64,000 bases of DNA from a virus: positions 1 to 64,000 of IMG/VR virus record IMGVR_UViG_3300035157_000753. One strand, 5' to 3'. The position numbers and the translations under genes are program-made. The notes beneath the pieces were generated by a model. That model searched no databases. It was not told the DNA's origin and saw nothing but the letters and a program-made list of their open reading frames with translations. The number at the start of each line of letters is the position of its first letter. The stretch's first letter is position 1. Below are positions 48,522 through 60,920 of this stretch, piece by piece.

Positions 48522-48562
48522 AGTGAAAAACCTCATGTGAAAAATGGATAATGGAAAGGCGA

Positions 48563-48748: not shown

Positions 48749-48754
48749 GCCTTA

Positions 48755-48908: not shown

Positions 48909-48939
48909 CGGGTCTTGGATTTTTTGGGTTTGGGTTTGG

Positions 48940-49254: not shown

Positions 49255-49281
49255 AAAGCAGAAATCCTCTGAACTAGTTCC

Positions 49282-49352: not shown

Positions 49353-49410
49353 TTTTGTTTCATTATGTTACGCTTCGCCGCTGCATCTGATTTTGTCAAG
49401 CGATCCTCTG

Positions 49411-49416
49411 TATAAT
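49411..49416 (+). promoter_or_regulatory. -10 box TATAAT for the 95-residue gene
   Basis: TGTATAATATGAGAG on the plus strand; a TTGTCA at 49393 is too close to be a normal -35. With the transcript starting near 49423, translation would use the ATG at 49444 rather than the ATG at 49417 that overlaps the box. Confidence 0.55.
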
Positions 49417-49443
49417 ATGAGAGTACAAAACGCCAGCATCCAA

Positions 49444-49731
49444 ATGCCAGCATCCGCTAAGTCTGCTCCCGTCTCAACCGTTGCTCCTAAAAAACCAGCA
49501 CGTAAGACCAGAGCACGCAAAGCACCCGCCGCCCCTCGCACTCGCAAAGCAGCGGCAACCCCTCAACCTCAAACCCCAAAGGTCGAAATGGTTGAACTCA
49601 AATCCATTTTCAAGGATTACCCTCGTGACGGATTTGCTCTTATCCTCCTTCCCGTTCTACTCTTGGAAGCAATGGTTAAGGAAATTCTACCCGTCCTCGG
49701 CAGAATAAAAGTTCCTACCTCATTCGGATAA
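49444..49731 (+). CDS. Basic Ala/Pro/Lys-rich protein with C-terminal hydrophobic segment, 95 aa
   Basis: Residues 1-50 are like a histone H1 or HU-type tail: SAPVSTVAPKKPARKTRARK, APAAPRTRKAAATPQPQ. Residues 57-70 (ELKSIFKDYPRDG) are polar and residues 70-90 contain one hydrophobic stretch (FALILLPVLLLEAMV) long enough to enter or span a membrane. The basic tail could bind nucleic acid and the end could attach to membrane. No family is recognised. It is closed by a strong terminator. Confidence 0.7.
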   Translation: MPASAKSAPVSTVAPKKPARKTRARKAPAAPRTRKAAATPQPQTPKVEMVELKSIFKDYPRDGFALILLPVLLLEAMVKEILPVLGRIKVPTSFG

Positions 49732-49738
49732 ATCACCT

Positions 49739-49761
49739 GACCCCGTAAGGGGTCTTTTTTT
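49739..49761 (+). terminator. Rho-independent terminator
   Basis: GACCCC-GTAA-GGGGTC then seven T, starting 8 bases after the stop of the 95-residue gene. Confidence 0.9.
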
Positions 49762-49767
49762 ATGGAT

Positions 49768-49837
49768 TCCGGCCGCCCGTGGACAGTTGGATTAGTGGCA
49801 CAAGAGACCTTCCATTGGGTCGGATTTGCCCTATACT
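49768..49837 (+). promoter_or_regulatory. Repeat element A with TGGCAC-N30-TATACT promoter
   Basis: CCGGCCGCCCGTGGACAGTT at 49769-49788, then TGGCAC at 49796-49801, exactly 30 bases, then TATACT at 49832-49837. It lies upstream of the DUF8033-like gene. No TTGACA at 17 bases. Confidence 0.65.
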
Positions 49838-49866
49838 TAAGAAGTCAACCAAAGCGATTCATTTTA

Positions 49867-50124
49867 ATGATCCTCAGACAACTCGGATCCAATCAGACCG
49901 AACTTTCTTTGAATAACGGAACCTCGTTATTTTTCTCCTACGAAACTCCCGTTGCTGGATTCTCTCCTGACTTGGGTTGGTTCAAAACCTCAACCTATTA
50001 TTCACGGACGACATCCAAGCACATCAACCAGTATTTCAAGCACGCTCCTAAAGACAAAATCAGAATTGTTTCAGATGATGTCATTTCCGAGATGTGTCAT
50101 CCAGACGATCGAATCAAGGTGTAG
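49867..50124 (+). CDS. DUF8033-like protein, 85 aa
   Basis: The start at MILRQLGSNQTELSLNNGTS is chosen because TATACT lies 29 bases upstream; the frame extends further up but into the promoter. The block GSNQTELSLNNGT.LFFSY.TPVAGF then TSTYYSRTTSKHINQYF resembles a small DUF8033-type protein widespread in phages and cyanobacteria (recalled resemblance). Function unknown. It is followed by the 51-residue gene after nine bases. Confidence 0.7.
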   Translation: MILRQLGSNQTELSLNNGTSLFFSYETPVAGFSPDLGWFKTSTYYSRTTSKHINQYFKHAPKDKIRIVSDDVISEMCHPDDRIKV

Positions 50125-50127
50125 AAT
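50122..50127 (+). promoter_or_regulatory. -10-like TAGAAT, leaderless arrangement
   Basis: TAGAAT, six bases, then ATG at 50134. It overlaps the stop of the DUF8033-like gene. Confidence 0.45.
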
Positions 50128-50133
50128 GTAGGT

Positions 50134-50289
50134 ATGAGAAATCTACAAATCACCGAATCTGAAGAAGAAGTCCTTGCTCAAATGGCGGTCTTCTTCTTCG
50201 ACTGCGGAATCCCTGATCACTTCGATCAGGACGCTTTCAATTCTCTCTTTGAGAAAATCACCGAACCTTCACCCTTCGATTATGTCTGA
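50134..50289 (+). CDS. Hypothetical protein, 51 aa
   Basis: Reads MRNLQITESEEEVLAQMAVF, then FFDCGIPDHFDQDAFNSLFE, then KITEPSPFDYV. Acidic alpha-helical. The next gene starts inside its stop region (8-base overlap). Not recognised. Confidence 0.65.
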   Translation: MRNLQITESEEEVLAQMAVFFFDCGIPDHFDQDAFNSLFEKITEPSPFDYV

Positions 50290-50419
50290 AACCTACCTTG
50301 AAGATCTAGCAGAGGCAATCTTCGACCAAATCGTCACCGAGAATTTCAAAGACCTCACCAAATCAGAAGAGGCACTCATTTATGAAATTGCGTGTGATCG
50401 AGCATATGAGGGAGTCTAG
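50282..50419 (+). CDS. Hypothetical protein, 45 aa
   Basis: Reads MSETYLEDLAEAIFDQIVTE, then NFKDLTKSEEALIYEIACDR, then AYEGV. Acidic, helical. It begins at the overlap with the 51-residue gene; a longer in-frame extension upstream lies within that gene. Its stop codon lies in the loop of the following terminator hairpin. Confidence 0.65.
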   Translation: MSETYLEDLAEAIFDQIVTENFKDLTKSEEALIYEIACDRAYEGV

Positions 50420-50432
50420 CACTCCCTTTTTT
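50410..50432 (+). terminator. Rho-independent terminator overlapping a stop codon
   Basis: GGGAGT-CTAGC-ACTCCC then six T. The TAG stop is in the loop. Confidence 0.9.
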
Positions 50433-50459
50433 CCTGTCCCATTATTTTAAAAGAACACT

Positions 50460-50957
50460 ATGCCAAATTGGTGCAATAACAGACTCACAGTCTCAGGCGA
50501 AAATACTGCAGACGTTCAAAAGGTCAAATCCTTCTTTGAAAGCGATTCCCCATTTGCTGAAATCTACCCCGAACCCGATTGGTCAAAAATCCCACTCGCT
50601 GAGGATGACCTTAAATATCTTGGGCGACAGCGTGGCGAGGTTGGTGAACTCCCAGTCTATAAAGAATACAAATCCCCAAACGGCGAGGTTTGCCATAGGG
50701 GTTTAGAATTTGCGTCCACAGGAAATCAGGACGATCGCTGGTATAATTGGCGGTGCTATCATTGGGACACAAAATGGGACATCAACCGAGACCATATAGA
50801 ATGGGGTGATGAGGATGACGATTATTTCGTTTGCCATTTTGACACGGCATGGAGTCCACCAGAGGGCATCATTCACAAATTACGTGAAATGTTCCCTGAC
50901 CTCGGCATCTCATTATTTTATGATGAACCAGGAATGGAAATTGCTGGGTACGTCTAA
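50460..50957 (+). CDS. YubB/Api92-like ferredoxin-fold protein, 165 aa
   Basis: Starts MPNWCNNRLTVSGE, the typical opening of YubB-type proteins with a ferredoxin-like fold that are carried by plasmids and phages. Residues 28-55 hold FESDSPFAEIYPEPDWSKIP, and residues about 90-130 hold a Trp-rich segment (DDRWYNWRCYHWDTKWDI) then CHFDTAWSPPEGII, characteristic of the family. The function is unknown. It ends in TAATG with the 55-residue gene. Confidence 0.82.
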   Translation: MPNWCNNRLTVSGENTADVQKVKSFFESDSPFAEIYPEPDWSKIPLAEDDLKYLGRQRGEVGELPVYKEYKSPNGEVCHRGLEFASTGNQDDRWYNWRCYHWDTKWDINRDHIEWGDEDDDYFVCHFDTAWSPPEGIIHKLREMFPDLGISLFYDEPGMEIAGYV

Positions 50958-51124
50958 TGAACCAATTTAGAATCGAATGCTCTGAGGTCAACTACTTCAC
51001 AGTTCTTGTTGAAGCAGAGACCGAAGAGCAAGCGAGGGAACTTGCCCACGCAAATATAAATGGATTCCCTGTTGAAATGGAATACGTCTCCGAATGGACG
51101 ATTGAGTCAGTAGAAGAACTCTAA
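50957..51124 (+). CDS. Hypothetical protein, 55 aa
   Basis: Reads MNQFRIECSEVNYFTVLVEA, then ETEEQARELAHANINGFPVE, then MEYVSEWTIESVEEL. Beta-alpha-beta layout with an acidic C-terminus. Overlaps the YubB-like stop by one base. Not recognised. Confidence 0.7.
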   Translation: MNQFRIECSEVNYFTVLVEAETEEQARELAHANINGFPVEMEYVSEWTIESVEEL

Positions 51125-51128
51125 AAAA

Positions 51129-51168
51129 TCCGGCCGCCGATGGACAGTTGAGAGACTGTCCATTTTTT
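51129..51168 (+). repeat. Repeat element B (GGCCGCCGATGGACAGTT) forming a terminator
   Basis: CCGGCCGCCGATGGACAGTT matches element A at 17 of 20 positions or better. Here the right half is an inverted copy, so it folds. Confidence 0.7.
51140..51168 (+). terminator. Rho-independent terminator built from element B
   Basis: ATGGACAGT-TGAGAG-ACTGTCCAT followed by six T. Follows the 55-residue gene by 15 bases. Confidence 0.9.
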
Positions 51169-51191
51169 CCCCCATGGGGTCGATTTTCATG

Positions 51192-51197
51192 TAATAT
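51192..51197 (+). promoter_or_regulatory. -10-like TAATAT, leaderless arrangement
   Basis: TAATAT, AAGAGT, then ATG at 51204. TGTCCA of element B ends 29 bases upstream. Confidence 0.5.
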
Positions 51198-51203
51198 AAG
51201 AGT

Positions 51204-51380
51204 ATGAAATTCAACGACCAATTCACGATCACTCTCACCTCAGCACAGCACGATTTGCTGACATCCATTTTCAGTTCACTCGCTGATCTGGATTTGCCAC
51301 CCGCTGAGGATGACCAATTCGACTCCCTCTGGGATCAGGTCATAAACGCTGAACACAAAATCATCACTGAGGAATCATGA
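51204..51380 (+). CDS. Hypothetical acidic protein, 58 aa
   Basis: Reads MKFNDQFTITLTSAQHDLLT, then SIFSSLADLDLPPAEDDQFD, then SLWDQVINAEHKIITEES. Helical with an acidic loop. Its promoter box is six bases from the ATG. The next gene overlaps by four bases (ATGA). Not recognised. Confidence 0.7.
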   Translation: MKFNDQFTITLTSAQHDLLTSIFSSLADLDLPPAEDDQFDSLWDQVINAEHKIITEES

Positions 51381-51544
51381 GCATCATTTCTGAATTTTAC
51401 GGCGGTCTGCTAGAAAAGGGTTACACTGAGCGAGAAATTCGTGAGAGTGCCCAAAGACACCAGACCCGAACCGCGCCAGATTGGTTCAACGGAACCTATG
51501 AAGAATATCTGGACAAAATGCACGATTTTCTAAACGGGATTTAA
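51377..51544 (+). CDS. Hypothetical protein, 55 aa
   Basis: Reads MSIISEFYGGLLEKGYTERE, then IRESAQRHQTRTAPDWFNGT, then YEEYLDKMHDFLNGI. Helical. The stop codon lies in the loop of the terminator that follows. Not recognised. Confidence 0.7.
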   Translation: MSIISEFYGGLLEKGYTEREIRESAQRHQTRTAPDWFNGTYEEYLDKMHDFLNGI

Positions 51545-51557
51545 CTCCCGTTTTTTT
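51532..51557 (+). terminator. Rho-independent terminator overlapping a stop codon
   Basis: ACGGGA-TTTAAC-TCCCGT then a run of seven T. The TAA stop is in the loop. Confidence 0.9.
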
Positions 51558-51564
51558 ATGCGAT

Positions 51565-51637
51565 GCCGCCAGGCGGCTGACTTTTTTGATATCGCGGTCC
51601 AGCCGCCTGTGGACAATTCACTAACTGTCACAAGGGA
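51565..51637. repeat. GCCGCC hairpins and repeat element C
   Basis: CAGGCGGCT (51570-51578) pairs with AGCCGCCTG (51601-51609), and GCCGCCAGGCGGC plus a T run looks like a second plus-strand terminator. Element C is CCAGCCGCCTGTGGACAATT at 51599-51618 with TGTCAC at 51626-51631. The right edge lies in the 3' end of the minus gene. It fills the gap between converging transcripts. Confidence 0.6.
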
Positions 51638-51809
51638 CGTAGTATACTAGTCCTTCTGTGAGATAATAGGAACAGATCTGCTCAAACTCTGGGTGAGATT
51701 TGTGCATGTCAGTGTCAAGCAATCCCTGAACTAAATCTATGCTTTCCTTCCAATCTAATCCCGATTCTTTATACTTAGTGATTAGTACTTCTATACTATT
51801 CATAATCAT
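51621..51809 (-). CDS. Hypothetical protein, 62 aa
   Basis: Helical protein (IEVLITKYKESGLDWKESID, LVQGLLDTDMHKSHPEFEQI). The last residues (LVYYVPCDS) are encoded inside repeat element C, so the element may have supplied the C-terminus. A second in-frame Met is at 51803. Starts inside the end of the 56-residue gene. Not recognised. Confidence 0.6.
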   Translation of the reverse strand: MIMNSIEVLITKYKESGLDWKESIDLVQGLLDTDMHKSHPEFEQICSYYLTEGLVYYVPCDS

Positions 51810-51966
51810 CCTCCAAGTGATTCAGATCTTGTCTTATTCTATTAATATTGCTTATCTTGTCAGAATAGCCAGAATTGGCTAAATCCTCAAATTGTTCTAA
51901 TTCTCTCTTTTTTTGGCCAAATGATCCCTTTTTGCGATTACCGCGATAATCCCACGACTTTGCCAT
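51796..51966 (-). CDS. Hypothetical basic protein, 56 aa
   Basis: Reads MAKSWDYRGNRKKGSFGQKK, then RELEQFEDLANSGYSDKISN, then INRIRQDLNHLEDDYE. The basic N-terminus (YRGNRKK) and helical remainder suggest a nucleic-acid-binding or regulatory small protein, without a recognised family. Overlaps the next gene by 14 bases. Confidence 0.6.
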   Translation of the reverse strand: MAKSWDYRGNRKKGSFGQKKRELEQFEDLANSGYSDKISNINRIRQDLNHLEDDYE

Positions 51967-52001
51967 TTTTCTGTCCGTTTGTAGAAGTTTACAGGTTTTA
52001 A

Positions 52002-52256
52002 CTAAACTTGGGGCTTTTGAACTAAATCGCCACTTTTCAAAGAATCATTATAAAACCTTCCAAGTGACAGGGAAGTAGGATCTTCAACAAAACCTTCGAG
52101 CTTGGCTAAAAGAGTTTTGTTTGCGGGTTTCCACTCATACTCATAGGTTTTCTCATTCCCTGAGAAGTTGATGAATACCTTGGAACTCTGCACGACTATC
52201 TTGTCAATTGCAGAACTCAACTCGGCGATTTCAAATGTGTGCTTTTTGGCTGCCAC
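52002..52256 (-). CDS. Small beta protein, KTSC-like by eye, 84 aa
   Basis: Reads AELSSAIDKIVVQSSKVFIN, FSGNEKTYEYEWKPANKTL, then SLGRFYNDSLKSG. The layout SS.I..I, paired strands, then S.G.(F/Y)(Y/F)N..(I/L) resembles the KTSC fold, whose role is unknown. It has the best consensus promoter in the window. Not a firm assignment. Confidence 0.65.
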   Translation of the reverse strand: MAAKKHTFEIAELSSAIDKIVVQSSKVFINFSGNEKTYEYEWKPANKTLLAKLEGFVEDPTSLSLGRFYNDSLKSGDLVQKPQV

Positions 52257-52282
52257 GTTCTTTTTGGTTATCTACATTAGTA

Positions 52283-52311
52283 ATTATAATCGATCTCGCC
52301 TCACCTGTCAA
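52283..52311 (-). promoter_or_regulatory. Consensus sigma70 promoter TTGACA-N17-TATAAT
   Basis: TTGACA at 52306-52311, 17-base spacer, TATAAT at 52283-52288 on the minus strand. It drives the 84-residue gene at 52256 with a leader of about 20 bases. Confidence 0.85.
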
Positions 52312-52321
52312 CCAACCTCTG

Positions 52322-52401
52322 AGCCACTTCGAGAACTGTCACAAAACCACTTGACAAACTGGCACACTGCGGGCTTAGACCCCAAAGCACTCTGATACAA
52401 T
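52322..52401 (+). promoter_or_regulatory. Repeat element F with TGGCAC-N30-TACAAT, no gene downstream
   Basis: GAGCCACTTCGAGAACTGTCAC, then CTTGACAAACTGGCAC (TGGCAC at 52360-52365), exactly 30 bases, then TACAAT at 52396-52401. It points at the 3' end of the oxygenase gene, so it is an orphan, an antisense promoter or a relic. Confidence 0.5.
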
Positions 52402-52471
52402 AACAAAGTAAACCGCCCAACTACGTTTTTATTAACATTTCTTAAAAGGGTAGTATCCTTGAGTATCTTAC

Positions 52472-53068
52472 TCACAAAATACCTGGTCCTTCGCGGAATA
52501 CATCAAATATGAGGGAAATTCTATCGAATCTACCCATATTTTCTACCTTATGCATCGCGGAACTCTGGAAAATCATCAATTTACCCTCCGCCTGGGGTCT
52601 AGACTCATTCCGTACAGATAGCGTACAGATCTCAGCAGTAAATGGCAACTGACACCTCAGTCTCTGAGTATGACTATTAGGATCAGGGTCATAATGCCAT
52701 CCTAGAGATGCATCAGGTGCTAGTTTAACCATACCTACGTACATAGTTTCACCTAACCATGTCATTGTCTTTGCTAGTTTAGGTAATACTTCTACGTTCC
52801 TTGGGTATGGTGTACGATTAAAGAATAATGGTGCTATACTCCACTTACTATCTTCTGTTGCTAGTGGTGCAGTAAAGTATTCATCATATTGTATTTCATG
52901 TCCTTGATTACTTTCTTCTATGGTCTTCTTCTGGTATGATGTAAAGTCTCTCCACTCTAGTCCATAATGATTGCTATCCCACTCCTTCTTTAGAGTAGGA
53001 TAGACTGTATGTAATCCCTTTAGTCGTCCGTTGACTTCTTCAGGTTCATAGAAATAATCACCTTTCAT
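52472..53068 (-). CDS. Aspartyl/asparaginyl beta-hydroxylase-like 2OG/Fe(II) oxygenase, 198 aa
   Basis: Iron-binding HxD is at H125-D127 (GWHYDPDP), with R136 and R138 following, and the distal His at H173 (SSAMHKVENMG) and R183 (DRISLIFDV), which is the Asp_Arg_Hydrox arrangement HxD...R..C.LPF...G....F....H.V.N...R. The fold hydroxylates Asp/Asn side chains or other small substrates with 2-oxoglutarate. No signal peptide, so cytoplasmic. Overlaps the 53-residue gene by 11 bases. One of three such enzymes in the window; the substrate is unknown. Confidence 0.85.
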   Translation of the reverse strand: MKGDYFYEPEEVNGRLKGLHTVYPTLKKEWDSNHYGLEWRDFTSYQKKTIEESNQGHEIQYDEYFTAPLATEDSKWSIAPLFFNRTPYPRNVEVLPKLAKTMTWLGETMYVGMVKLAPDASLGWHYDPDPNSHTQRLRCQLPFTAEICTLSVRNESRPQAEGKLMIFQSSAMHKVENMGRFDRISLIFDVFREGPGIL

Positions 53069-53219
53069 TCGCTAGTTGTGTTGGTGATTTGGTTGTAGGA
53101 TTATGTGCCCATGCCGTACATATGTTATAGATCTCATTCCCTAGTCCTTCATGTGATAGTTCTAGGTAACATTGACGGCGACGTTCCATTTCGTCTTCTG
53201 TGGGGTGTTCTACACTCAT
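53058..53219 (-). CDS. Hypothetical protein, 53 aa
   Basis: Reads MSVEHPTEDEMERRRQCYLE, then LSHEGLGNEIYNICTAWAHN, then PTTKSPTQLANER. Acidic start, helical middle. Overlaps both neighbours (ATGA at its start). Not recognised. Confidence 0.7.
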   Translation of the reverse strand: MSVEHPTEDEMERRRQCYLELSHEGLGNEIYNICTAWAHNPTTKSPTQLANER

Positions 53220-53422
53220 TTCTTTAACAGTTGCTTACTAGTTGTACCATACTGTGAATAGAGTTTGGCATCATTGATTGCATGATCCTCGCTCCTAAAC
53301 GGTCCATATGATTGTGGTACATCGGTGAATGACCAGTAAACTCCTTTTCTCTTTGGTTGTAATTCAACCAGTATGTCCTGATTCAGTACTGTGAACTGGA
53401 CTTTCTTGAGGGACTTTGCCAT
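53216..53422 (-). CDS. Hypothetical protein, 68 aa
   Basis: Reads MAKSLKKVQFTVLNQDILVE, a strand-rich middle (GVYWSFTDVPQSYGPFRSED) and a helical end (HAINDAKLYSQYG). It overlaps the 86-residue gene by 59 bases. Basic. Not recognised. Confidence 0.65.
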   Translation of the reverse strand: MAKSLKKVQFTVLNQDILVELQPKRKGVYWSFTDVPQSYGPFRSEDHAINDAKLYSQYGTTSKQLLKK

Positions 53423-53624
53423 TTGGGATCCTTGGGGTGATTTGATCGTAATAGTCAGGATAGACTAAAACGTTAACTTGTTTAATGCCATGTAGTGTCC
53501 CTTCATCGGGCCACTCATGTGTACAGACTACGATATAATCACTACAAACGAAATTGATGTATGCACTGTCGTGCCCATCAAAGGAGACTGGATCTCCGAT
53601 CTTGAACTGATGTTTCTTAGGCAT
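53364..53624 (-). CDS. Hypothetical SH3-like beta protein, 86 aa
   Basis: Reads KIGDPVSFDGHDSAYINFVC, SDYIVVCTHEWPDEGTLHGI, KQVNVLVYPDYYDQI. The KIGD.V.F...G...V pattern with strand turns is typical of small SH3-like barrel proteins, but this is only a resemblance. The last part overlaps the next gene in another frame. Confidence 0.65.
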   Translation of the reverse strand: MPKKHQFKIGDPVSFDGHDSAYINFVCSDYIVVCTHEWPDEGTLHGIKQVNVLVYPDYYDQITPRIPNGKVPQESPVHSTESGHTG

Positions 53625-53830
53625 TAGTTACCAAAACCATTACCCTTATTTAACTCTGTTCTCTGTGCGTATAAACTACGCAACTCACGTTTCAACCTTG
53701 CTTCCTCTTCTCCCGTGTAGATATAGGACTGTTTTAAACACTCCTTGATCATTTTAATTTGTTTGGATAGAGTGCCGACTGATTGATACATCTGAGGTTT
53801 ACTGGATAATGGTTCTGGTCTAAGCTTCAT
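53624..53830 (-). CDS. Small helical protein, 68 aa
   Basis: Helical coiled-coil-prone protein (GTLSKQIKMIKECLKQSYIY, EEEARLKRELRSLYAQRTEL). Basic. Adjoins its neighbours by one base. Not recognised. Confidence 0.65.
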   Translation of the reverse strand: MKLRPEPLSSKPQMYQSVGTLSKQIKMIKECLKQSYIYTGEEEARLKRELRSLYAQRTELNKGNGFGN

Positions 53831-53834
53831 GTCA

Positions 53835-53951
53835 TCATAAGGCAGTTGCTACATCTTCCTCCACACAGTCTACGATATGGTCTAATACTTGCAATACTTC
53901 AGCACCACTGTTGGTGTTCTCAAGTAGAAAGAAAGCAAATGATTCAGACAT
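53835..53951 (-). CDS. Acidic microprotein, 38 aa
   Basis: Reads MSESFAFFLLENTNSGAEVL then QVLDHIVDCVEEDVATAL. Begins 31 bases after the tRNA, ends in TGATGACATG beside the 68-residue gene. No strong SD. Not recognised. Confidence 0.55.
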   Translation of the reverse strand: MSESFAFFLLENTNSGAEVLQVLDHIVDCVEEDVATAL

Positions 53952-53981
53952 GATGATAATAAAATGAGGTTTACATTTGAA

Positions 53982-54056
53982 TGGTGCCACAAGAGAGATT
54001 TGAACTCCCGACCTTGGCTTTACAAAAGCCCTGCACTACCGCTGTGCTATTGTGGC
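53982..54056 (-). tRNA. trnT-UGU: tRNA-Thr (anticodon UGU)
   Basis: Acceptor GCCACAA pairs perfectly with TTGTGGC, discriminator A and an encoded CCA. D-arm GCAC-AGCGGTA-GTGC, anticodon loop TTTGTAA (UGU), T-arm GGGAG-TTCAAAT-CTCTC. The anticodon stem GGGCT/AGCCA has a G-A mismatch at its base. It reads ACA (and other ACN) codons, and ACA and ACT are frequent in the fibre genes. Transcribed with its leader from a promoter at 54170. Confidence 0.92.
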
Positions 54057-54062
54057 ATGTTA

Positions 54063-54099
54063 TGGTAGTTTCCTATCGCCTCCATGTCTGAAACTACCA
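54063..54099 (-). other. 10-bp hairpin just upstream of the tRNA
   Basis: TGGTAGTTTC (54063-54072) and GAAACTACCA (54090-54099) pair perfectly around a 17-base loop. It lies six bases before the tRNA 5' end. Could be a processing signal of the tRNA transcript. Confidence 0.55.
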
Positions 54100-54113
54100 A
54101 AGGGACATGCAGC

Positions 54114-54164
54114 AGTAAGAGGTTCGACTTAAAGAGCAACTTGTGTGCTCACCCTTGCCTTACT
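54114..54164 (-). other. Nested inverted repeats in tRNA leader
   Basis: AGTAAG/CTTACT (54114-54119 and 54159-54164) encloses GAGCA/TGCTC (54134-54138 and 54146-54150). It contains GGTTCGACT on the plus strand, a T-loop-like string, but no full tRNA can be folded. Possibly a structured RNA or a decayed tRNA. Confidence 0.4.
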
Positions 54165-54169
54165 CTCTT

Positions 54170-54197
54170 ATTATAGCAGATCGAGACTGCCATGCAA
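54170..54197 (-). promoter_or_regulatory. Promoter TTGCAT-N16-TATAAT for the tRNA leader
   Basis: TTGCAT at 54192-54197, 16-base spacer, TATAAT at 54170-54175, overlapping the stop of the nuclease gene. A CTGCAC lies exactly 30 bases upstream of TATAAT. Confidence 0.6.
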
Positions 54198-54884
54198 TAC
54201 CCTATGTGCAGGTTTGTTGGCTGGCACACCATCCATTAGTCTGGTGATGATCGGTGCTAGTCTAGTCTTGAAGAAGTCAAAATACTCATCAATGGTAAAG
54301 GGCATATTATCTTCTCCTACCCATCTAAAGAGATCAGAGACACCATACACACCCACTCCAAGAGCAACATACTCTCTTGATATTTCTACTGGTATCTCTC
54401 TCTTGACTGGTATGAAATATCCCCTTTGTACCTCAGTATTATACTTCTCTCCTAATACTTCAGCGATTTGATGTATCTTCTCATTTGATGCACGTATCTT
54501 CTCTGTATCAAAATTCACATTGCACTTACTCTCTAGGTACATATGTGATGCATACATGAGTTCAGGTATAGTAAAGAAATGATCTATCTGTCTTGTTCTA
54601 CCATTGACATCAACACGATCACTATCTTCAATTAAATTACGTGACACACTATTATCAAGATCACTAATGACTGTGTTCCAAAACTTCTCTAGTCTACCAC
54701 CTACTGTAATGGATACAGACTGTGTAGATGGACGTGATCCTAGACCACATGCTTCTAGAATGAATGATTCTGTTGCCTTTGGTTTGATACTCTCAATGAG
54801 TGGAAGCAATGTTGCTTCCAAGTATTCAGTGGATGATAACATTGGAAAAATTGTAAGTAGGAATAGAGCGTATTCGTATAACAT
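54171..54884 (-). CDS. Candidate PD-(D/E)XK restriction-type endonuclease, 237 aa
   Basis: The start at 54884 has GAGG six bases upstream (AGAGGTTATAATG); a longer frame from 54911 lacks this. The core GRTRQID101HFF followed by E118-S-K120 and CNVNFDTEK has the D-x(16)-ExK layout of type II restriction endonucleases, where D and E hold Mg2+ and K activates water. An Asn/Asp-Thr-Glu-Lys string after ExK is a pattern I associate with some of them. It lies two genes from a Dam-like methylase. Target and activity are not shown. Confidence 0.65.
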   Translation of the reverse strand: MLYEYALFLLTIFPMLSSTEYLEATLLPLIESIKPKATESFILEACGLGSRPSTQSVSITVGGRLEKFWNTVISDLDNSVSRNLIEDSDRVDVNGRTRQIDHFFTIPELMYASHMYLESKCNVNFDTEKIRASNEKIHQIAEVLGEKYNTEVQRGYFIPVKREIPVEISREYVALGVGVYGVSDLFRWVGEDNMPFTIDEYFDFFKTRLAPIITRLMDGVPANKPAHRVLHGSLDLL

Positions 54885-55008
54885 TATAACCTCTTTCTCT
54901 CTTGATTTCAACTATACTGAAATCCTCGTCTTTGTCGTAGTCCACAATATTGATAGTCTCTTCAGGATCAAACTGTTCGAGATGATGAATTAACTGTCGT
55001 ACTAGCAT
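54826..55008 (-). CDS. Small hypothetical protein, 60 aa
   Basis: Reads MLVRQLIHHLEQFDPEETIN, IVDYDKDEDFSIVEIKRERG, then YNVIRIRSIPTYN. The N-terminus LIHHLEQFDPEETINIVDYD is like a family of small phage proteins. It overlaps the nuclease start by 59 bases; the tail may be less constrained. Coupled by overlap to the gene at 55002. Confidence 0.6.
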   Translation of the reverse strand: MLVRQLIHHLEQFDPEETINIVDYDKDEDFSIVEIKRERGYNVIRIRSIPTYNFSNVIIH

Positions 55009-55220
55009 CTTGACTGCTCATACTCTGTAACAACATCAGTAACTAACTGCTTATGAATGTAGAATAGTTTACCTAGGTCAACATCCTCTAGTTCAGTCCA
55101 CTCAGATACATAATCAGTTTGATCTAGATCAGGTGTACCATCAGTAAATGTAGGGCATGAGCAGAACTCATCCTCATCATCTAACCAGAAGTGTCTACCG
55201 AAATGCAATGAAGCGATCAT
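55002..55220 (-). CDS. Acidic hypothetical protein, 72 aa
   Basis: Reads MIASLHFGRHFWLDDEDEFC, SCPTFTDGTPDLDQTDYVSE, WTELEDVDLGKLFYIHKQLV. Strongly acidic. Acid-rich small phage proteins sometimes mimic DNA, which is only a thought here. It has a TATAAT 21 bases upstream. Not recognised. Confidence 0.65.
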   Translation of the reverse strand: MIASLHFGRHFWLDDEDEFCSCPTFTDGTPDLDQTDYVSEWTELEDVDLGKLFYIHKQLVTDVVTEYEQSRC

Positions 55221-55241
55221 GTGAACTGTGTAACTATGATT

Positions 55242-55285
55242 ATTATAGTCTCTTTATGCAGCATCTTGCAACATAGGCAGTGCCA
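55242..55285 (-). promoter_or_regulatory. TATAAT with TGGCAC 32 bases upstream
   Basis: TATAAT at 55242-55247 and TGGCAC at 55280-55285 in the last codons of the methylase. The spacing is two bases longer than at the exact sites, and the TGGCAC is coding, so chance is possible. Confidence 0.5.
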
Positions 55286-56096
55286 CTCTATGAAGTGTCA
55301 TATCATTCTCGTAATTGGTCACGTACATATGCTTTACTTGAGCATTGGCATGGTTCTTACCCTTGCCCCATCGTTGAGCATACTGATGAGGTTTAATCAT
55401 AATATGATAGTCCTTTAGGGCATTCATATAATAATCATCCTCAGTATGTACAAATAACCATTTGGCACTGGTATTATTCATACACTCTACTAATCGTTCA
55501 TGTAAATCCTCACCACCATCACCAGTGGTGTATCCTAAACGATTGAGATAGGGTGGATCAATGAATATCCAGTCATTCTCAAGTGCATCTTCAAATATAC
55601 TCTCAAAAGATCCATTGTTTAATTTGCATCGCTTGAGCATTTTCATGTGCTCCCAATTAAGATTGCATGAAAACTTCTTGTAATGACCAAATGGTACATT
55701 GAATTTACCATTGCTGTTGTATCTCTCCATACCAGAGAAACACAACTGCCTTACAGTAATGTAACTGACTGCCCATTTATATGGGTCACGTTCACCATCA
55801 TTAATGTAATCTCTTGATTCATAGTACTCTTTCTCTAATGCATCATGATCTAATGTTTTTAGATAGCATACGTGAGAGAATACTTCCTGGAACATGATAG
55901 GATCTTTAACCTGAGCATACATGTTCATCAAGGTAGCATTGATATCATTCAATACTGATGTTTTATTCAATGCAAATGAGACCGCAGCACCACCACAAAA
56001 GGGTTCTAATACCCTTTCAAACTGATCTGGTAGCAATTGCTTGATCAGTGGTAGTTCTTTGGTCTTACCGCCTTGATACTTGACAATAGGTTTCAT
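55254..56096 (-). CDS. dam: Dam-like DNA adenine methyltransferase (D12 class), 280 aa
   Basis: D12-class N6-adenine methylase. The N-terminal KYQGGK at residues 6-11 and EPFCGG at 31-36 form the SAM-binding FxGG region; DPPY at 180-183 is the catalytic motif. Length is like T4/E. coli Dam (about 260-280). Such enzymes methylate GATC or related sites and can protect phage DNA. It ends 33 bases before the TATAAT of the 72-residue gene and is coupled at its start to the 76-residue gene. Confidence 0.92.
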   Translation of the reverse strand: MKPIVKYQGGKTKELPLIKQLLPDQFERVLEPFCGGAAVSFALNKTSVLNDINATLMNMYAQVKDPIMFQEVFSHVCYLKTLDHDALEKEYYESRDYINDGERDPYKWAVSYITVRQLCFSGMERYNSNGKFNVPFGHYKKFSCNLNWEHMKMLKRCKLNNGSFESIFEDALENDWIFIDPPYLNRLGYTTGDGGEDLHERLVECMNNTSAKWLFVHTEDDYYMNALKDYHIMIKPHQYAQRWGKGKNHANAQVKHMYVTNYENDMTLHRVALPMLQDAA

Positions 56097-56323
56097 TTCT
56101 TACGCAGTCTCTCCACTTCATTACGTGCAGACTGCTCATTGCGACAATACTTTATTATAGCACCATTGTGGACTAAAGCCAACTTGGTCTTACTACCCAT
56201 CACTGGTATAGCATAATAACCATCTTTAGTTGCAAATCCATGTTCACAATCTTTATAGAACCTAGCAATAGATTCTAATTCCTTCTGTTCAGGTGTTTTG
56301 GTCGATTTTCTTGTTGTGCTCAT
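56093..56323 (-). CDS. Small basic hypothetical protein, 76 aa
   Basis: The start at MSTTRKSTKTPEQKELESIA is chosen; upstream extensions overlap the 83-residue gene. It contains FYKDCEHGFATKDGYYAIPV and C-terminal helix NEQSARNEVERLRKK. Not recognised; coupled to dam by four bases. Confidence 0.65.
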   Translation of the reverse strand: MSTTRKSTKTPEQKELESIARFYKDCEHGFATKDGYYAIPVMGSKTKLALVHNGAIIKYCRNEQSARNEVERLRKK

Positions 56324-56540
56324 CCCAAGGGTGTACATAATCACGGTTTTCAATTGTGTGGATGGATAGATGAGCATCTTTGCCCCATCTATTCATTTGT
56401 CGGATCCCACCGAACCCTAATTCTAAATCTTTATCTGTCCAACCAAGTTCTTTAACTAACTCTTCTCGTATGTAAATGTGTAGTTCTCCTTCAACATACT
56501 TGTAGTCAAAATACTTGTCAATGTGTGGGTCAATTGCCAT
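56289..56540 (-). CDS. Hypothetical protein, 83 aa
   Basis: Reads MAIDPHIDKYFDYKYVEGEL, HIYIREELVKELGWTDKDLE, FGGIRQMNRWGKDAHLSIHT. Strand-rich then helical. A late promoter TATAAATA lies 22 bases upstream, so it may be expressed late. Not recognised. Confidence 0.7.
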   Translation of the reverse strand: MAIDPHIDKYFDYKYVEGELHIYIREELVKELGWTDKDLELGFGGIRQMNRWGKDAHLSIHTIENRDYVHPWDEHNKKIDQNT

Positions 56541-56561
56541 AGTTATCTGTAAGCACCTCGA

Positions 56562-56569
56562 TATTTATA
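56562..56569 (-). promoter_or_regulatory. T4-type late promoter TATAAATA
   Basis: Exact TATAAATA on the minus strand, 22 bases upstream of the 83-residue gene and overlapping the stop of the oxygenase gene. It would give late expression of this gene, the 76-residue gene and dam. Confidence 0.75.
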
Positions 56570-57080
56570 CCAAACCTTGTTGGTAAAAATCCTCTTCTTG
56601 TGTTGATTCTGGAACTGTCACTAGATTACCAGACACCACAATTCTATCATGCAAGCATGTATGTGGGGTTACGTAATGTATGCGTTCTCCATCAAACACA
56701 TGTAAGTTACCAACTTTAGGTTTAACAACTTCAGGTGGTAACCATGGGTGTTTTATGTCAGGGAAGATAAGAGGAGAGCATTTAGGACAGGCATCCAAAT
56801 ACCACACAAAAGACCAAACAGAACCGTTATGGTTATGAGCCTCTGCGTAGTCACCTTGTCTGTAGATGCTGATCCAGAGATCCTCGACCTCCAACGTTGG
56901 ATAGATGACATTGAGTTGACCTAAGAGTTCATCGAAAATATAACAATCAGACACGTCCCAGTCAGTCAAATCTGCTTTGACTGGCGCGTCCTCCCTTCGA
57001 TATAAAGAGAGTTCCTTAATAATCTCTTTATAATTTATAGGTGGACGTACATAGAACTTGTCAATCGTTAAGTTTTGCAT
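56565..57080 (-). CDS. Putative 2OG-Fe(II) oxygenase, 171 aa
   Basis: The start at MQNLTIDKFYVRPP is chosen because the longer frame lies within the metallopeptidase end. H82-N83-H84 (AEAHNHNGSVWSFVWYLD), then GNLHVFDGERIHYVTPH with H135, and R146 (HDRIVVSGNL) fit PF13759-type 2OG oxygenases with an H-x-H variant of HxD. Its substrate is unknown. It overlaps the metallopeptidase stop by 20 bases. Confidence 0.82.
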   Translation of the reverse strand: MQNLTIDKFYVRPPINYKEIIKELSLYRREDAPVKADLTDWDVSDCYIFDELLGQLNVIYPTLEVEDLWISIYRQGDYAEAHNHNGSVWSFVWYLDACPKCSPLIFPDIKHPWLPPEVVKPKVGNLHVFDGERIHYVTPHTCLHDRIVVSGNLVTVPESTQEEDFYQQGLV

Positions 57081-57522
57081 CCTGATACTCTTTAAAGAAG
57101 ACTGATTCCATCTTGTATGCATCAATCTCCCATGGTTCATCCATGTATTCTGTTTCAGGGGGTACTGGTACTCCCTTCCACTTATTTACTACTCTACTAT
57201 GACGTGTAGAGAAACGTTGTACATGTGTACCACGTAATCTTTGTTCTACATGACGTAGTTCATGGAATAGAGTAGTTAAATACTGCTCTTTGTTGTCTAA
57301 TCGGTTCTCCAACTCGATCTCAAAGTAACGTGGACGTGATAACTCATCAATTGATAAGCATGTTCCATCATTACCCTGATGCCACAACCGTTTGTCTACA
57401 ATATGGACAAACGTGTTGAAGCGATTGAGTTTACGATGCTTGAAGAACCACTCGATTGCAGCGCGAGCGATCCGCTTGCGATTACGATACCCACCAAACG
57501 TGACATAACAAGACATGACCAA
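57061..57522 (-). CDS. Zincin-type metallopeptidase-like protein, 153 aa
   Basis: The zinc-binding HELRH motif is at residues 87-91 (TTLFHELRHVEQ) and a third ligand is probably E132 in DEPWEIDAY. The N-terminus has RNRKRIARAAIEWFFKHRKL. It resembles SprT/ImmA-type short metalloproteases. Cytoplasmic. Function in the phage is not known. Overlaps the oxygenase gene. Confidence 0.8.
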   Translation of the reverse strand: MVMSCYVTFGGYRNRKRIARAAIEWFFKHRKLNRFNTFVHIVDKRLWHQGNDGTCLSIDELSRPRYFEIELENRLDNKEQYLTTLFHELRHVEQRLRGTHVQRFSTRHSRVVNKWKGVPVPPETEYMDEPWEIDAYKMESVFFKEYQDAKLND

Positions 57523-57586
57523 TGAAGAAAGTAAATGAATGAGGAAATAAAGACTAGTTTTTCAAGTCCAGACATATCTTTTGCGT

Positions 57587-57781
57587 TCATGTAACCAACC
57601 TCCCTAACCTATCAAACTCTTTATCAAGAACTGGCACATATAATATGCCATCATCCTTTAACATAGAGAGTGTGTCCATAAACCATTTGTTGTTAGCAAT
57701 GTGCTGATCTAATGGTAAATTAGAGAAGTAAGTCTGTGACCAATTCGAGAAGAATGGTGAATCAGCGTAAGTTAATTTCAT
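57587..57781 (-). CDS. Hypothetical protein, 64 aa
   Basis: Reads MKLTYADSPFFSNWSQTYFS, NLPLDQHIANNKWFMDTLSM, LKDDGILYVPVLDKEF. Helical middle with strands. Coupled to the 86-residue gene by four bases. Not recognised. Confidence 0.65.
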   Translation of the reverse strand: MKLTYADSPFFSNWSQTYFSNLPLDQHIANNKWFMDTLSMLKDDGILYVPVLDKEFDRLGRLVT

Positions 57782-58038
57782 TCTTGTATCTCATCTAAAC
57801 GTAGACCACGATAACCTGATGCTGGTGCATCAAGTTCGTCCAAAGCTCGACCTAGTTCTTTGGTAAGGTGCTTTTCTAACTGTATATCATCAACATTATG
57901 TCTTACTGCGATCTGGTTTCCTATGGTTGGGTCTGTAGACCACATAAGATCAATAAGATACTTGATCTGTTGTGTGTCCAGTTCAACCATCGTTACTACG
58001 CTGTCCATTTCTGGTTGCTCCGTGATGATTACTTCCAT
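57778..58038 (-). CDS. Hypothetical protein, 86 aa
   Basis: Reads MEVIITEQPEMDSVVTMVEL, DTQQIKYLIDLMWSTDPTIG, HLTKELGRALDELDAPASGY. Helical; a small phage protein of unknown role. Overlaps the methyltransferase by ten bases. Confidence 0.65.
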   Translation of the reverse strand: MEVIITEQPEMDSVVTMVELDTQQIKYLIDLMWSTDPTIGNQIAVRHNVDDIQLEKHLTKELGRALDELDAPASGYRGLRLDEIQE

Positions 58039-58988
58039 AGTATATCAGGTAATTGAGTTGGAATGCTATCAATACGGTCAGTTTGCAAACTGGCATAGTC
58101 CTTATTGAGTTCACACCCAATATAGTGTCTATTATGTTTCTTGGCAACCATGGCAGTGGTTCCTGATCCCATAAAAGGATCCAGAATCACATCACCCTCG
58201 TTGCTCCCTGCCAAGATACATGGTTCAATGAGGTCTGGGGGGAACACTGCGAAATGTGCTCCTTTGTATGGTTTATTCGTAACTGACCATACACTACGCT
58301 TATTTTTCTTCTCGTAAGACTTGGTGAGACCACTATGTGGCTGTAACCCTGTCCCTTCATTATGATACTTCCCTTCAGTTCTATTTCTCGTTCCCCAGTC
58401 TTGCTTGACTGGTTCTTTGATTGCTTCATTGTCATATTTGTAATTCTTGCTCTTGCTTAGTAGAAAAATGTATTCATGCGACTTAGTACATCTATCACGA
58501 ACACTCTCAGGCATGGGGTTAGGCTTGTGCCAGATTATATCCTGTCTCAACCACCACCCATCAGCACGTAGTGCAAATGCTAACATCCATGGTATACCGA
58601 TTAGATCCTTACTCTTAAGTCCTTCTAGTCTATTTCCTCTTACTGGTGTATTCTGAGGTAGATCTTGTCTGGTCTTAGCAACTGTCTGTTTAGGATAGTT
58701 ACCATCACTTCTGTAATTATAGTATGTGTCACCTATGTTAACCCACAACGTACCATCCTCTGCAAGTACATCACGCACTAATGAGAATACCTTAACCATT
58801 TCAGCAATGTATTCTTCTGGTGATTGCTCCATACCTATCTGCTCCTCCTTACCACCATAGTCCCTTAGACCATAGTAAGGTGGTGATGTTACACACATCT
58901 GTGGTTTTTCCGCAATACCAGTTGTAATCTGTGCTTTCAGTGTGCCTAGTGTCTTACGACAGTCACCAAATAATACTGTGTCTCTCAT
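58029..58988 (-). CDS. Beta-class DNA methyltransferase (N4-cytosine or N6-adenine), 319 aa
   Basis: TSPPYYGLRDYG at residues 34-45 is the catalytic SPPY motif and DPFMGSGTT at 270-278 is the SAM-binding motif I. The order IV first, I last places it in the beta class, which includes N4-cytosine and N6-adenine enzymes. The middle has IGIPWMLAFALRADGWWLRQ, the target-recognition region. It probably modifies phage DNA in a sequence-dependent way. It is next to the two small membrane genes. Confidence 0.9.
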   Translation of the reverse strand: MRDTVLFGDCRKTLGTLKAQITTGIAEKPQMCVTSPPYYGLRDYGGKEEQIGMEQSPEEYIAEMVKVFSLVRDVLAEDGTLWVNIGDTYYNYRSDGNYPKQTVAKTRQDLPQNTPVRGNRLEGLKSKDLIGIPWMLAFALRADGWWLRQDIIWHKPNPMPESVRDRCTKSHEYIFLLSKSKNYKYDNEAIKEPVKQDWGTRNRTEGKYHNEGTGLQPHSGLTKSYEKKNKRSVWSVTNKPYKGAHFAVFPPDLIEPCILAGSNEGDVILDPFMGSGTTAMVAKKHNRHYIGCELNKDYASLQTDRIDSIPTQLPDILWK

Positions 58989-59156
58989 CTAATTGTCCCA
59001 ATGCCGAATGACACCACTAATAATAAAGCAATTAGTGACAAGGTAAGTAGCAAATATGATGCTACGGACAATAATAATCGCATTGTCGTATCGTTTTGTG
59101 GTTTCGTCATTAAATGATCCTAGTGAATACTTCCATACTCTAATAAATCTCCTCAT
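58989..59156 (-). CDS. Small membrane protein, 55 aa
   Basis: Reads MRRFIRVWKYSLGSFNDETT, KRYDNAIIIVRSIIFATYLV, TNCFIISGVIRHWDN. One hydrophobic segment at about residues 27-48 after a basic N-terminus. It starts in the stop of the 34-residue gene (ATGA) and ends next to the methyltransferase ATG. Role unknown; a holin-like or membrane accessory is possible. Confidence 0.7.
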   Translation of the reverse strand: MRRFIRVWKYSLGSFNDETTKRYDNAIIIVRSIIFATYLVTNCFIISGVIRHWDN

Positions 59157-59257
59157 TTCCTTTTATTCCTTTTCTTCTTAGTAGGTTTAAAAGCACCGAG
59201 GGATCTGAGTAAGAACAGTGTGAGTACTGTCCAAAAAATTACATACCAACCATTCAT
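59153..59257 (-). CDS. Small membrane protein, 34 aa
   Basis: Reads MNGWYVIFWTVLTLFLLRSL then GAFKPTKKKRNKRK. One hydrophobic segment at residues 3-19 and a strongly basic tail, the pattern of a single-pass protein with its C-terminus inside. Coupled to the 55-residue gene. Not recognised. Confidence 0.7.
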   Translation of the reverse strand: MNGWYVIFWTVLTLFLLRSLGAFKPTKKKRNKRK

Positions 59258-59258
59258 T

Positions 59259-59879
59259 TCATGCAAAGTTTAAAGCTATGGTAATACGCTCCCCATCAAA
59301 TGTTGACGGTGGAACTGAGTGTTGCAAGTTAGATCTGAAGATAACAACAGCTTTCTCTTGCGGTGGTGCAATCAATACATCCTGATTTAATGGTGTTGGT
59401 TGCACTTTATTCTTAGGTGGTAGCATACTTCCCATATCAGGACGCTTAAAGTATGTACCAGCAGCACCTTTAGGTACTTTCACATAATATATTGCGGAGA
59501 ATATGTTATATGGGTGCATGTGGAACTCTTGATACTTACCACTCTGATATACATTATACCATGATTCTGTGCATTCGTAAACCTCATCCGAACCATAGTG
59601 TCTAGCGAAGTCATTTACACACTCAGTTACCTTATTAATGAGCGTAGTGAATTCCAAATATTCCGTAAGGTCAGTAAGGTGAAAGCAATTGTCTGGTGAT
59701 GATGCACCACTCAACCAACTCTCAGTGTTACCTTTCTTGAATACTTTACGCAATTCATGTACTTTACTAGATATTACCGCATTCTCTTTATCAGTCAATA
59801 GATTAGTTGCCGCATATAATCCCACTGGGAACACATGCGTCACATTATTATTAACTTGGTGTACGTTTATATTACTCAT
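59259..59879 (-). CDS. 2OG-Fe(II) oxygenase (PF13759-like), 206 aa
   Basis: Typical pattern: ESWYNVYQSGKYQEFHMHPY (W107, H120, H122), AIYYVKVPKG, FRSNLQHSVPP (H187) and R198 near the end (GERITIALNFA). This family, frequent in cyanophages, uses 2-oxoglutarate and Fe(II). H120-x-H122 takes the place of HxD, as in related phage proteins. Substrate unknown. It overlaps its upstream neighbour by 8 bases. Confidence 0.87.
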   Translation of the reverse strand: MSNINVHQVNNNVTHVFPVGLYAATNLLTDKENAVISSKVHELRKVFKKGNTESWLSGASSPDNCFHLTDLTEYLEFTTLINKVTECVNDFARHYGSDEVYECTESWYNVYQSGKYQEFHMHPYNIFSAIYYVKVPKGAAGTYFKRPDMGSMLPPKNKVQPTPLNQDVLIAPPQEKAVVIFRSNLQHSVPPSTFDGERITIALNFA

Positions 59880-60135
59880 CTAAGTCAGGCAACTTCTTTT
59901 CAACCCAATGATCCGTGTTATCAATACCAGCAGCAGTAACATAGCGCATAATATGCTCATCTATTTGATGATAGATTGGATGTAGATCCAAGTCCATATT
60001 AATATCATGTGCTATCTGTGATACTTGATCTGCTGAGAAGCAATGATCAGGATGTAATAGATCACAACACGGAATTCTTTTCTCTATTAGTTCGTTGAGA
60101 TTAATCCTAATCTCATAGTCTCTGTATACAGGCAT
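59872..60135 (-). CDS. Hypothetical protein, 87 aa
   Basis: Reads MPVYRDYEIRINLNELIEKR, with CCDLLHPDHCFSADQVSQIA and an acidic C-terminus (KLPDLDE). Helical with paired Cys and His. Not recognised. A double terminator precedes its start. Confidence 0.65.
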   Translation of the reverse strand: MPVYRDYEIRINLNELIEKRIPCCDLLHPDHCFSADQVSQIAHDINMDLDLHPIYHQIDEHIMRYVTAAGIDNTDHWVEKKLPDLDE

Positions 60136-60150
60136 AGTATTAAAGGGTTC

Positions 60151-60173
60151 TAAAAGGGGTCTAGGAGACCCCT
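60151..60173 (-). terminator. Rho-independent terminator (minus strand)
   Basis: On the minus strand AGGGGTCT-CCT-AGACCCCT then TTTT. An alternative stem GACCCC-TTGA-GGGGTC overlaps it, up to 60182. It ends the 107-residue gene transcript. Confidence 0.85.
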
Positions 60174-60181
60174 CAAGGGGT

Positions 60182-60505
60182 CTATCTAAGATAAAGGTAT
60201 GATCCCGCCCAGTCTGCTCTAGTTAGGCATTGGGCATAAGATGAATCATCTAAAAGGTTGTAGCGCACATGCTTTGCAGGTTTTGCCCATGATGCTGGTT
60301 TGTACACATCACCAGTCTTTCTATCTATGAAAGCATGTACTGATGACTGGTTATCATCCGCAGTAATCTTAATGTACTTGCGTCCTTCTTTGATGTTGAA
60401 CACGGTACCAGAGTTAGGATACTTACTGTTTACATCCTCTTGAAGGATTTGTCCAAGCTTATGCGCTCTTTCGTAAACTGTGTCAACAAATAGTGCTTTA
60501 GTCAT
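60182..60505 (-). CDS. Hypothetical protein, 107 aa
   Basis: Reads MTKALFVDTVYERAHKLGQI, a strand block (RKYIKITADDNQSSVHAFID) and RKTGDVYKPASWAKPAKHVR, then NLLDDSSYAQCLTRADWAGS. A mixed alpha/beta fold; a type common in cyanophages as I recall, unknown function. It is monocistronic with its own promoter (TGTCAC-N30-TATACT) and terminator. Confidence 0.75.
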   Translation of the reverse strand: MTKALFVDTVYERAHKLGQILQEDVNSKYPNSGTVFNIKEGRKYIKITADDNQSSVHAFIDRKTGDVYKPASWAKPAKHVRYNLLDDSSYAQCLTRADWAGSYLYLR

Positions 60506-60528
60506 GGGGTTCCTTGATTGATATACTT

Positions 60529-60570
60529 AGTATAGTACATCATGGTGCGGATGGAAGACAATATGTGACA
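60529..60570 (-). promoter_or_regulatory. TGTCAC-N30-TATACT promoter
   Basis: TGTCAC at 60565-60570, exactly 30 bases, TATACT at 60529-60534, 23 bases upstream of the ATG at 60505. The -35 position has no TTGACA. Confidence 0.65.
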
Positions 60571-60575
60571 CTCAT

Positions 60576-60920
60576 TTAAGTGTCCTCATCCTCCCAATCC
60601 TCATCCCAGTCTATGCTATCATCAGCATCTTCCCAGAATTGCTCATAACACTCCGCATCCTCCTCATCAAACATAGAGAGATGGTGGTTCAATATTATCT
60701 TACCTTCTAAGGATCCAACACTTATAGTACTATCTCCGTCATTGATACAGAACCCACGCATCAACCAACGTGTTAGTTCATGCTCTGGATATGCTTCCAT
60801 CATGAGATCAACCAACTCCTCGAACTGTTCGCGTGGAAGATGCTTGTATTCAGTCCATGGATGACCTACGTTCTCCTGCCAACACGGAGTATTTCCATCA
60901 CGAAGTTCAAGCACGATCAA
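60576..60920 (-). CDS. Hypothetical acidic protein, 114 aa
   Basis: Reads MIVLELRDGNTPCWQENVGH, FEELVDLMMEAYPEHELTRW, then an extremely acidic tail (DSIDWDEDWEDEDT). Helical. Not recognised. Overlaps the 222-residue gene by 14 bases. Confidence 0.7.
   Translation of the reverse strand: MIVLELRDGNTPCWQENVGHPWTEYKHLPREQFEELVDLMMEAYPEHELTRWLMRGFCINDGDSTISVGSLEGKIILNHHLSMFDEEDAECYEQFWEDADDSIDWDEDWEDEDT

Follow-up and report, generated by a model that had tools for sequence, protein, structure and literature searches.

The late promoters governed by P2 Ogr and P4 Delta are activated from a dyad at about -55 and have poor -35 boxes, whereas T4 middle promoters carry a MotA box at about -30 that is not palindromic. 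In the T4-like cyanophages, Doron et al. (2016, ISME J 10:1437) reportedly found that a novel regulatory element controls the early genes of phage Syn9, with such elements being abundant and conserved in the group. The consensus for Ogr/Delta binding is TGT-N12-ACA (PMC3931495). T4-type phages also contain PeSL cassettes, in which a stem-loop and an early promoter occur together within variable regions (PMC4503421), and a 2010 review called early and middle control in T4-like cyanophages, which are without MotA, AsiA, Alt and ModA, unclear (PMC2984593). Here we describe a palindromic promoter element in a 64-kb stretch (the window) of an 87.2-kb uncultured virus record in IMG/VR, IMGVR_UViG_3300035157_000753. 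The source is an uncultured T4-like cyanophage: P-HM2, P-SSM4 and other phages of that type are the relatives of the record, and baseplate genes occupy the left part of the window. The part considered here consists of consecutive small genes with two DNA methyltransferases among them. From the sequence, we consider it probable that these sites act as activator-dependent promoters for small genes of early type, in which the palindrome would be bound by a putative dimer, most likely encoded by the phage.

A palindrome at a fixed distance from the -10 box

The original prediction for this DNA, which was made from the letters alone, listed six pairs of a TGGCAC or TGTCAC box and a -10-like hexamer separated by 30 to 32 bases (N30 to N32). 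All six pairs are present, at 49796 (N30, TATACT), 52360 (N30, TACAAT) and 51626 (N30, GATAAT) on the plus strand and at 60570 (N30, TATACT), 49324 (N31, TATAAT) and 55285 (N32, TATAAT) on the minus strand. The prediction took a 6-bp box near -45 as the unit; this has to be replaced by a 24-bp palindrome centred near -53.5. To describe it we pooled 120 composites, each consisting of the operator dyad, the spacing and a -10 hexamer, from cultured and uncultured phages. Their column frequencies give the imperfect palindrome TGTGMCASTTnnnnAASTGKCACA, of which TGKCAC is the promoter-proximal half, and the TATAAT -10 lies about 29 bp beyond the palindrome. Conservation had extended beyond TGGCAC across approximately 50 nonredundant IMG/VR instances. 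In the 120 composites, the left outer TGTG, present at 62/57/59/81%, mirrors the right CACA; the first three of these left-hand bases lay outside the search pattern and the last was free within it, while the right arm was largely fixed by the pattern. The degenerate positions are mutually complementary (M with K, S with S). The dyad fits all six of the listed pairs, that at 51626 with a mismatch. If the transcription start is assumed to lie 7 nucleotides (nt) past the -10 box, the palindrome spans -65 to -42. A sub-variant ending in GTCCAC recurs in other phages and may be compared with the window site at 51140.

The spacing does not arise by chance. A chance arrangement of boxes and -10-like hexamers is hardly credible, although the loose pattern alone (TGKCAC-N30..32-TATAAT, up to 1 mismatch) is only weak evidence in the window, where its 7 occurrences are just about threefold above the mean of 2.2 in shuffled sequence and equal the shuffle maximum of 7. 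For the stricter TGKCAC-N29..32-TATAMT there are 4 occurrences where shuffling gives 0.27, and for the dyad with its spacing (CASTN6ASTGKCAC-N29..32-TATAAT, up to 1 mismatch) there are 5 where shuffling gives 0.01; the chance control in the window consisted of 200 dinucleotide shuffles. Larger tests refute the chance reading. When IMG/VR was scanned with TTGACANNNTGGCACACNNNNNG, most contigs returned had a TATAAT-like hexamer 30-31 bp past TGGCAC (74 counts among 124 instances), with a few counts per position at most for the majority of other offsets. Composites with a gap of 29-33 bp were found at no fewer than 120 IMG/VR loci, compared with 2 loci at N22-26 and 11 at N34-38 for the displaced gaps in whole scans. 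Spacing was also scored in the record that contains the window and in seven T4-like cyanophages from culture: a -10 box at N29-31 occurs at 4-18 sites per genome, and the background at other offsets is 0.2-0.6 per position; S-RSM4, which is included in the operator counts below, was left out of this scoring. The -10 hexamers of the composites are of the sigma-70 TATAAT class. Although the composites were selected partly on these hexamers, the peak in spacing over background does not depend on that selection.

The dyad was also recovered by a de novo search for gapped words at fixed offsets upstream of -10 boxes near open reading frame (ORF) starts, which used no prior knowledge of the element. 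The search ranked it first in both S-SSM7 and S-PM2, and it accounted for most of the top words in P-SSM2. For T4 the same method returned GTTTAC and for the pelagiphage HTVC008M it returned TTGACTTT, both of which resemble ordinary -35 boxes. In the smaller or site-poorer genomes searched in this way, the dyad was not a clear top word.

A consensus -35 box at 16-18 bp from the -10 is not a feature of these promoters: the -35 is weak and partial, with two or fewer mismatches to TTGACA at this distance in 37% of the 120 composites, compared with 11.5% in shuffled spacers. The earlier statement that ordinary -35 boxes are missing upstream of the -10 hexamers at 49832, 49282 and 60529 therefore holds in the sense that they are degraded but not as strict absence, since direct reading at the 17-bp position gives TGGAAA (2 mismatches) for the 49282 site, CCTTCC for 49832 and CTTCCA for 60529.

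Genes and hairpins associated with the element

An ORF follows 104 of the 120 composites, its start mostly lying 20-34 nt past the -10 box, and for about 20 gene families, five window genes among them, the element precedes orthologues in two phages or more. Loci selected by protein only gave the same result. The composite is present at 11 of 26 nonredundant phrog_5643 loci and at 12 of 26 nonredundant loci of DUF7717 relatives, in each case compared with 0/520 after shuffling.

The gap between palindrome and -10 box frequently contains a hairpin, folding at -8 kcal/mol or better in approximately 29% of cases as opposed to 5% upstream of any TATAAT. Many of these hairpins resemble terminators, with a GC stem followed by a T run, and others abut the -10 box. 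The operator, the terminator of the preceding unit and the -10 are thus often nested, and the hairpin would terminate the preceding transcription unit. These hairpins, together with the concentration of sites in a variable region, recall the PeSL arrangement, and the S-PM2 stem-loop at 11369-11391, which is named in PMC4503421, sits in the gap of the 11350 site. They could be taken to mean that the promoters are ordinary sigma-70 promoters and the repeat a part of mobile promoter-terminator cassettes with no protein partner. We regard this as very improbable, given that conservation is far higher in the palindrome than in the gap, that the distance stays fixed however the sequence of the gap varies and that the element is found across very different genera.

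Sites in the window

The operators and associated genes of the window are as follows.

49318-49341, minus strand: operator CTGACCAGTTGACATAGTGGCACA, -10 TATAAT at 49287-49282 (N31); the element also precedes the orthologue of its gene in P-HM2 (site 39295) and in L230
48940-49254, minus strand: gene of the 49318-49341 promoter, 104 amino acids, DUF3574/phrog_16022, ATG 27 nt past the -10
49779-49802, plus strand: operator GTGGACAGTTGGATTAGTGGCACA, -10 TATACT at 49832-49837 (N30)
49867-50124, plus strand: small gene, 85 amino acids, phrog_5643; start set by the -10 and by the element-bearing P-HM2 and P-SSM4 orthologues, which have the same start residue
51140-51163, plus strand: operator ATGGACAGTTGAGAGACTGTCCAT, a TGTCCA variant, with a weak -10 TAATAT at 51192-51197 (N29)
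51204-51380, plus strand: small ORF of 58 amino acids past the 51140 operator, with no PHROG or Pfam match
51609-51632, plus strand: degenerate operator GTGGACAATTCACTAACTGTCACA, GATAAT at 51662-51667; no gene seen downstream
52320-52343, minus strand: operator TGTGACAGTTCTCGAAGTGGCTCA, -10 TATAAT at 52288-52283 (N32); the element also precedes the P-HM2 orthologue (site 35693)
52002-52256, minus strand: gene of the 52320 promoter, 84 amino acids, GTG start, phrog_4357
52343-52366, plus strand: orphan operator AAAACCACTTGACAAACTGGCACA, -10 TACAAT at 52396-52401 (N30); kept in the relative L076
54205-54228, minus strand: weaker operator TGTGCCAGCCAACAAACCTGCACA, -10 TATAAT at 54175-54170 (N30), upstream of tRNA-Thr
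53982-54056, minus strand: tRNA-Thr(tgt), which the 54205 element precedes by about 110 nt; the sole tRNA gene found in the window
55279-55302, minus strand: operator TATGACACTTCATAGAGTGGCACT, -10 TATAAT at 55247-55242 (N32), within the 3' end of the gene for an adenine methyltransferase of the D12 class
55002-55220, minus strand: gene of the 55279 promoter, 72 amino acids, phrog_13427; the element also precedes the P-SSM2 orthologue (site 66594)
58074-58097, minus strand: possible weak operator TATGCCAGTTTGCAAACTGACCGT, TATACT at 58044-58039 (N30), followed by the gene 57778-58008/58038
60564-60587, minus strand: operator GAGGACACTTAAATGAGTGTCACA, -10 TATACT at 60534-60529 (N30)
60182-60505, minus strand: DUF7717 gene (PF24835, phrog_818) of the 60564 promoter

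The members at 51140 (plus strand) and 52343 (minus strand) were not in the earlier list, nor were the weaker, possible ones at 54228 and 58097 (both minus strand). A longer ORF at 49762-50124 has its program-assigned start upstream of the promoter, and we place the real start at 49867. The operator at 51609-51632 is a weak member or a relic. At 52320-52366 two operators in opposite orientations adjoin each other. The strong plus-strand operator and -10 at 52343-52401 stand in a convergent layout that is kept in L076, with no plus-strand gene in either phage; transcription from this promoter might yield a small or antisense RNA directed at the hydroxylase gene (52472-53068), or the site could aid the divergent promoter.

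Dyads are typical of repressor sites, and some of those described here are common to two divergent promoters or sit between them (in the window at 52320-52366, in P-HM2 at 39295/39312 and in P-SSM4 at 51356/51373), as might be seen if the palindrome were the operator for a phage repressor that closes the promoters later in infection. The position from -65 to -42, upstream of the -35 and -10 boxes, the rigid distance and the poor -35 boxes are as expected for activation, and we judge the repressor explanation improbable.

Distribution among phages and hosts

Operators were counted in cultured genomes with up to 1 mismatch on both strands, so that a palindromic site can be counted twice, and compared with a reversed-pattern control. 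The counts for operator and control were 10/0 in Syn9, 17/0 in P-HM2, 24/0 in P-SSM2, 16/0 in P-SSM4, 19/0 in S-PM2, 30/2 in S-SSM7, 8/0 in S-RSM4 and 32/0 in the freshwater phage S-CRM01. The operator is enriched in 8/8 of the cultured T4-like cyanophages searched, and the element is widespread and conserved in this group. By the same count there was no operator in T4, P-SSP7 or PSS2, and one in HTVC008M. In most operator-bearing genomes the sites cluster in one variable region of small genes, with extra copies before other genes, including cobS and helicase, peptidase and cytidylyltransferase-like genes. In Syn9, sites precede genes at 48557, 49077, 50999, 51210, 52995, 127491 and 148741, the first five of which lie in its small-ORF cluster (48557-52995).

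The recogniser of truly immediate-early promoters needs to be present before any phage protein is made, and the element is common in T4-like cyanophages but nearly missing from HTVC008M and T4. Both points would suit a host (cyanobacterial) activator that binds the palindrome and is exploited by the phage for its first transcripts. A host regulator would be expected to own sites of its own, yet the strict operator gave 3 matches among 151 genomes of the host family, and the two-mismatch operator was present in 3/41. Those in host genomes G011 and G033 were read individually; they have no -10 box at the right distance and their surrounding sequence is unlike that of T4-type phages. Moreover, P-SSP7 and PSS2, which are also cyanobacterial phages, lack the operator. 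These near-empty host chromosomes argue against a host regulator of this specificity, and we consider a host activator rather unlikely; the argument would apply to regulators of this specificity and not to host factors whose chromosomal sites look different.

Four G011 contigs (C28, C51, C61 and C70; loci L379-L382) contain five near-palindromes of the same type without a correctly spaced -10. Two 'bacterial' contigs with multiple matches that were followed up proved to be T4-like cyanophage DNA, one from the Prochlorococcus single-cell assembly AG-418-C09 (contig 3; L384) and one from the Flavobacteriales metagenome-assembled genome TMED113 (L385). A strict 20-base pattern search in a collection of genome contigs gave no match.

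Probable activation by a phage-encoded dimer

The fixed distance, the palindrome, the poor -35 boxes and the scarcity of host sites together favour a dimeric activator encoded by the phage. The activator-dependent class suggested originally is supported by the near-fixed spacing of 30-31 bp, the recurrence before orthologous genes and the poor -35 boxes. The sequence itself shows the dyad, its spacing and conservation, its restriction to phages, the genes downstream and the hairpins; dimer binding, activation, early timing and a phage source for the binder are deduced from these. We propose that a protein dimer, most likely phage-encoded and either brought in with the virion or synthesised very early, would bind the palindrome near -53.5 and contact the host RNA polymerase engaged at the TATAAT -10 box, thereby offsetting the poor -35. 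In this way small genes and short operons of the host-takeover type would each have a switch of their own. If the genes are immediate-early, the activator would have to be in the virion or come from basal transcription.

Several observations weigh against activation by a phage-encoded dimer. About one third of the sites have a passable -35 and might fire unaided, and more distant relatives of the downstream genes mostly lack the element. The window sites at 51626 and 52360, which the original prediction had already noted as having no clear plus-strand gene, both remain orphans, the former being degenerate and the latter (52343-52366) geneless in the relative as well. S-TIM5 has only 2 variant operators, at 165047 and 170891, each with a -10 at N31. 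These variants are of the form GGTCAGT...ACTGGCCCA and similar, and the record does not place this cyanophage in the Kyanoviridae.

Candidate binding proteins

CobS, an AAA+ ATPase of the MoxR type that is generally assigned to cobalamin/porphyrin synthesis, is the sole candidate binder with any support, and this is speculative; that it is the binder, and so the missing activator of T4-like cyanophages, we consider highly doubtful. The N-terminal region of phage CobS (e.g. L480-L559) is conserved and gives several weak helix-turn-helix matches, the best at 6e-5. Such an N-terminus is not expected of a cobaltochelatase subunit. An AlphaFold model based on IMG/VR loci shows three helices at middling confidence (mean predicted local distance difference test score, pLDDT, of 70). 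The region has no sequence match in the PDB and no significant fold match, the top fold hits being a mixture of EF-hand proteins and Rex repressors. CobS is encoded by 7/7 of the element-rich phages checked, its helix region is altered in HTVC008M, and the element precedes cobS in 3 cultured phages and at 7/37 IMG/VR loci. CobS was not found in S-TIM5, which has two variant sites.

Other candidates were rejected. DUF7717, the commonest downstream family, is absent from the site-bearing P-HM2 and S-TIM5; phrog_507, discarded along with other conserved small proteins, is missing from the site-rich S-CRM01 and gave no DNA-binding match. The Syn9 'transcriptional regulator' gp230 has no usable Pfam match. 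The Ogr_Delta zinc-finger protein (PF04606) was found in 0/12 records (11 cultured phages and one from IMG/VR), with a positive E. coli control, and MotA (PF09158) in T4 only among 12 records.

Comparison with known systems

T4-like cyanophages rank with the most abundant viruses of the sea, and the promoter alone allows early-type genes to be annotated in metagenomes and helps to separate phage from host control. The sharp consensus and exact spacing also provide a probe for isolating the activator.

The palindrome, which occurs in the Syn9 small-ORF cluster, is probably the same element as that reported by Doron et al. 2016 in Syn9, and the promoter class has most likely been described already. 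With this probable identity the novelty is modest, and the window promoters add members from an uncultured phage to that class; should the published Syn9 element differ, the finding would carry more weight. The anatomy of the palindrome, the spacing controls, the gap hairpins, the host exclusion and the distribution were worked out independently here.

In mechanical terms, the nearest parallel is the Ogr/Delta class of P2 and P4. As in that class, a dyad lies near -55 (here -53.5, on the assumed transcription start), but the palindrome does not match TGT-N12-ACA and the genes it precedes are not late genes. The likeness to T4 MotA middle promoters lies in a phage-specific box that offsets the -35 in a T4-type phage, whereas here the unit is palindromic and has its centre near -53.5. 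Unlike PeSL cassettes, most copies of the element lack a strong hairpin, and the palindrome is upstream in all of them.

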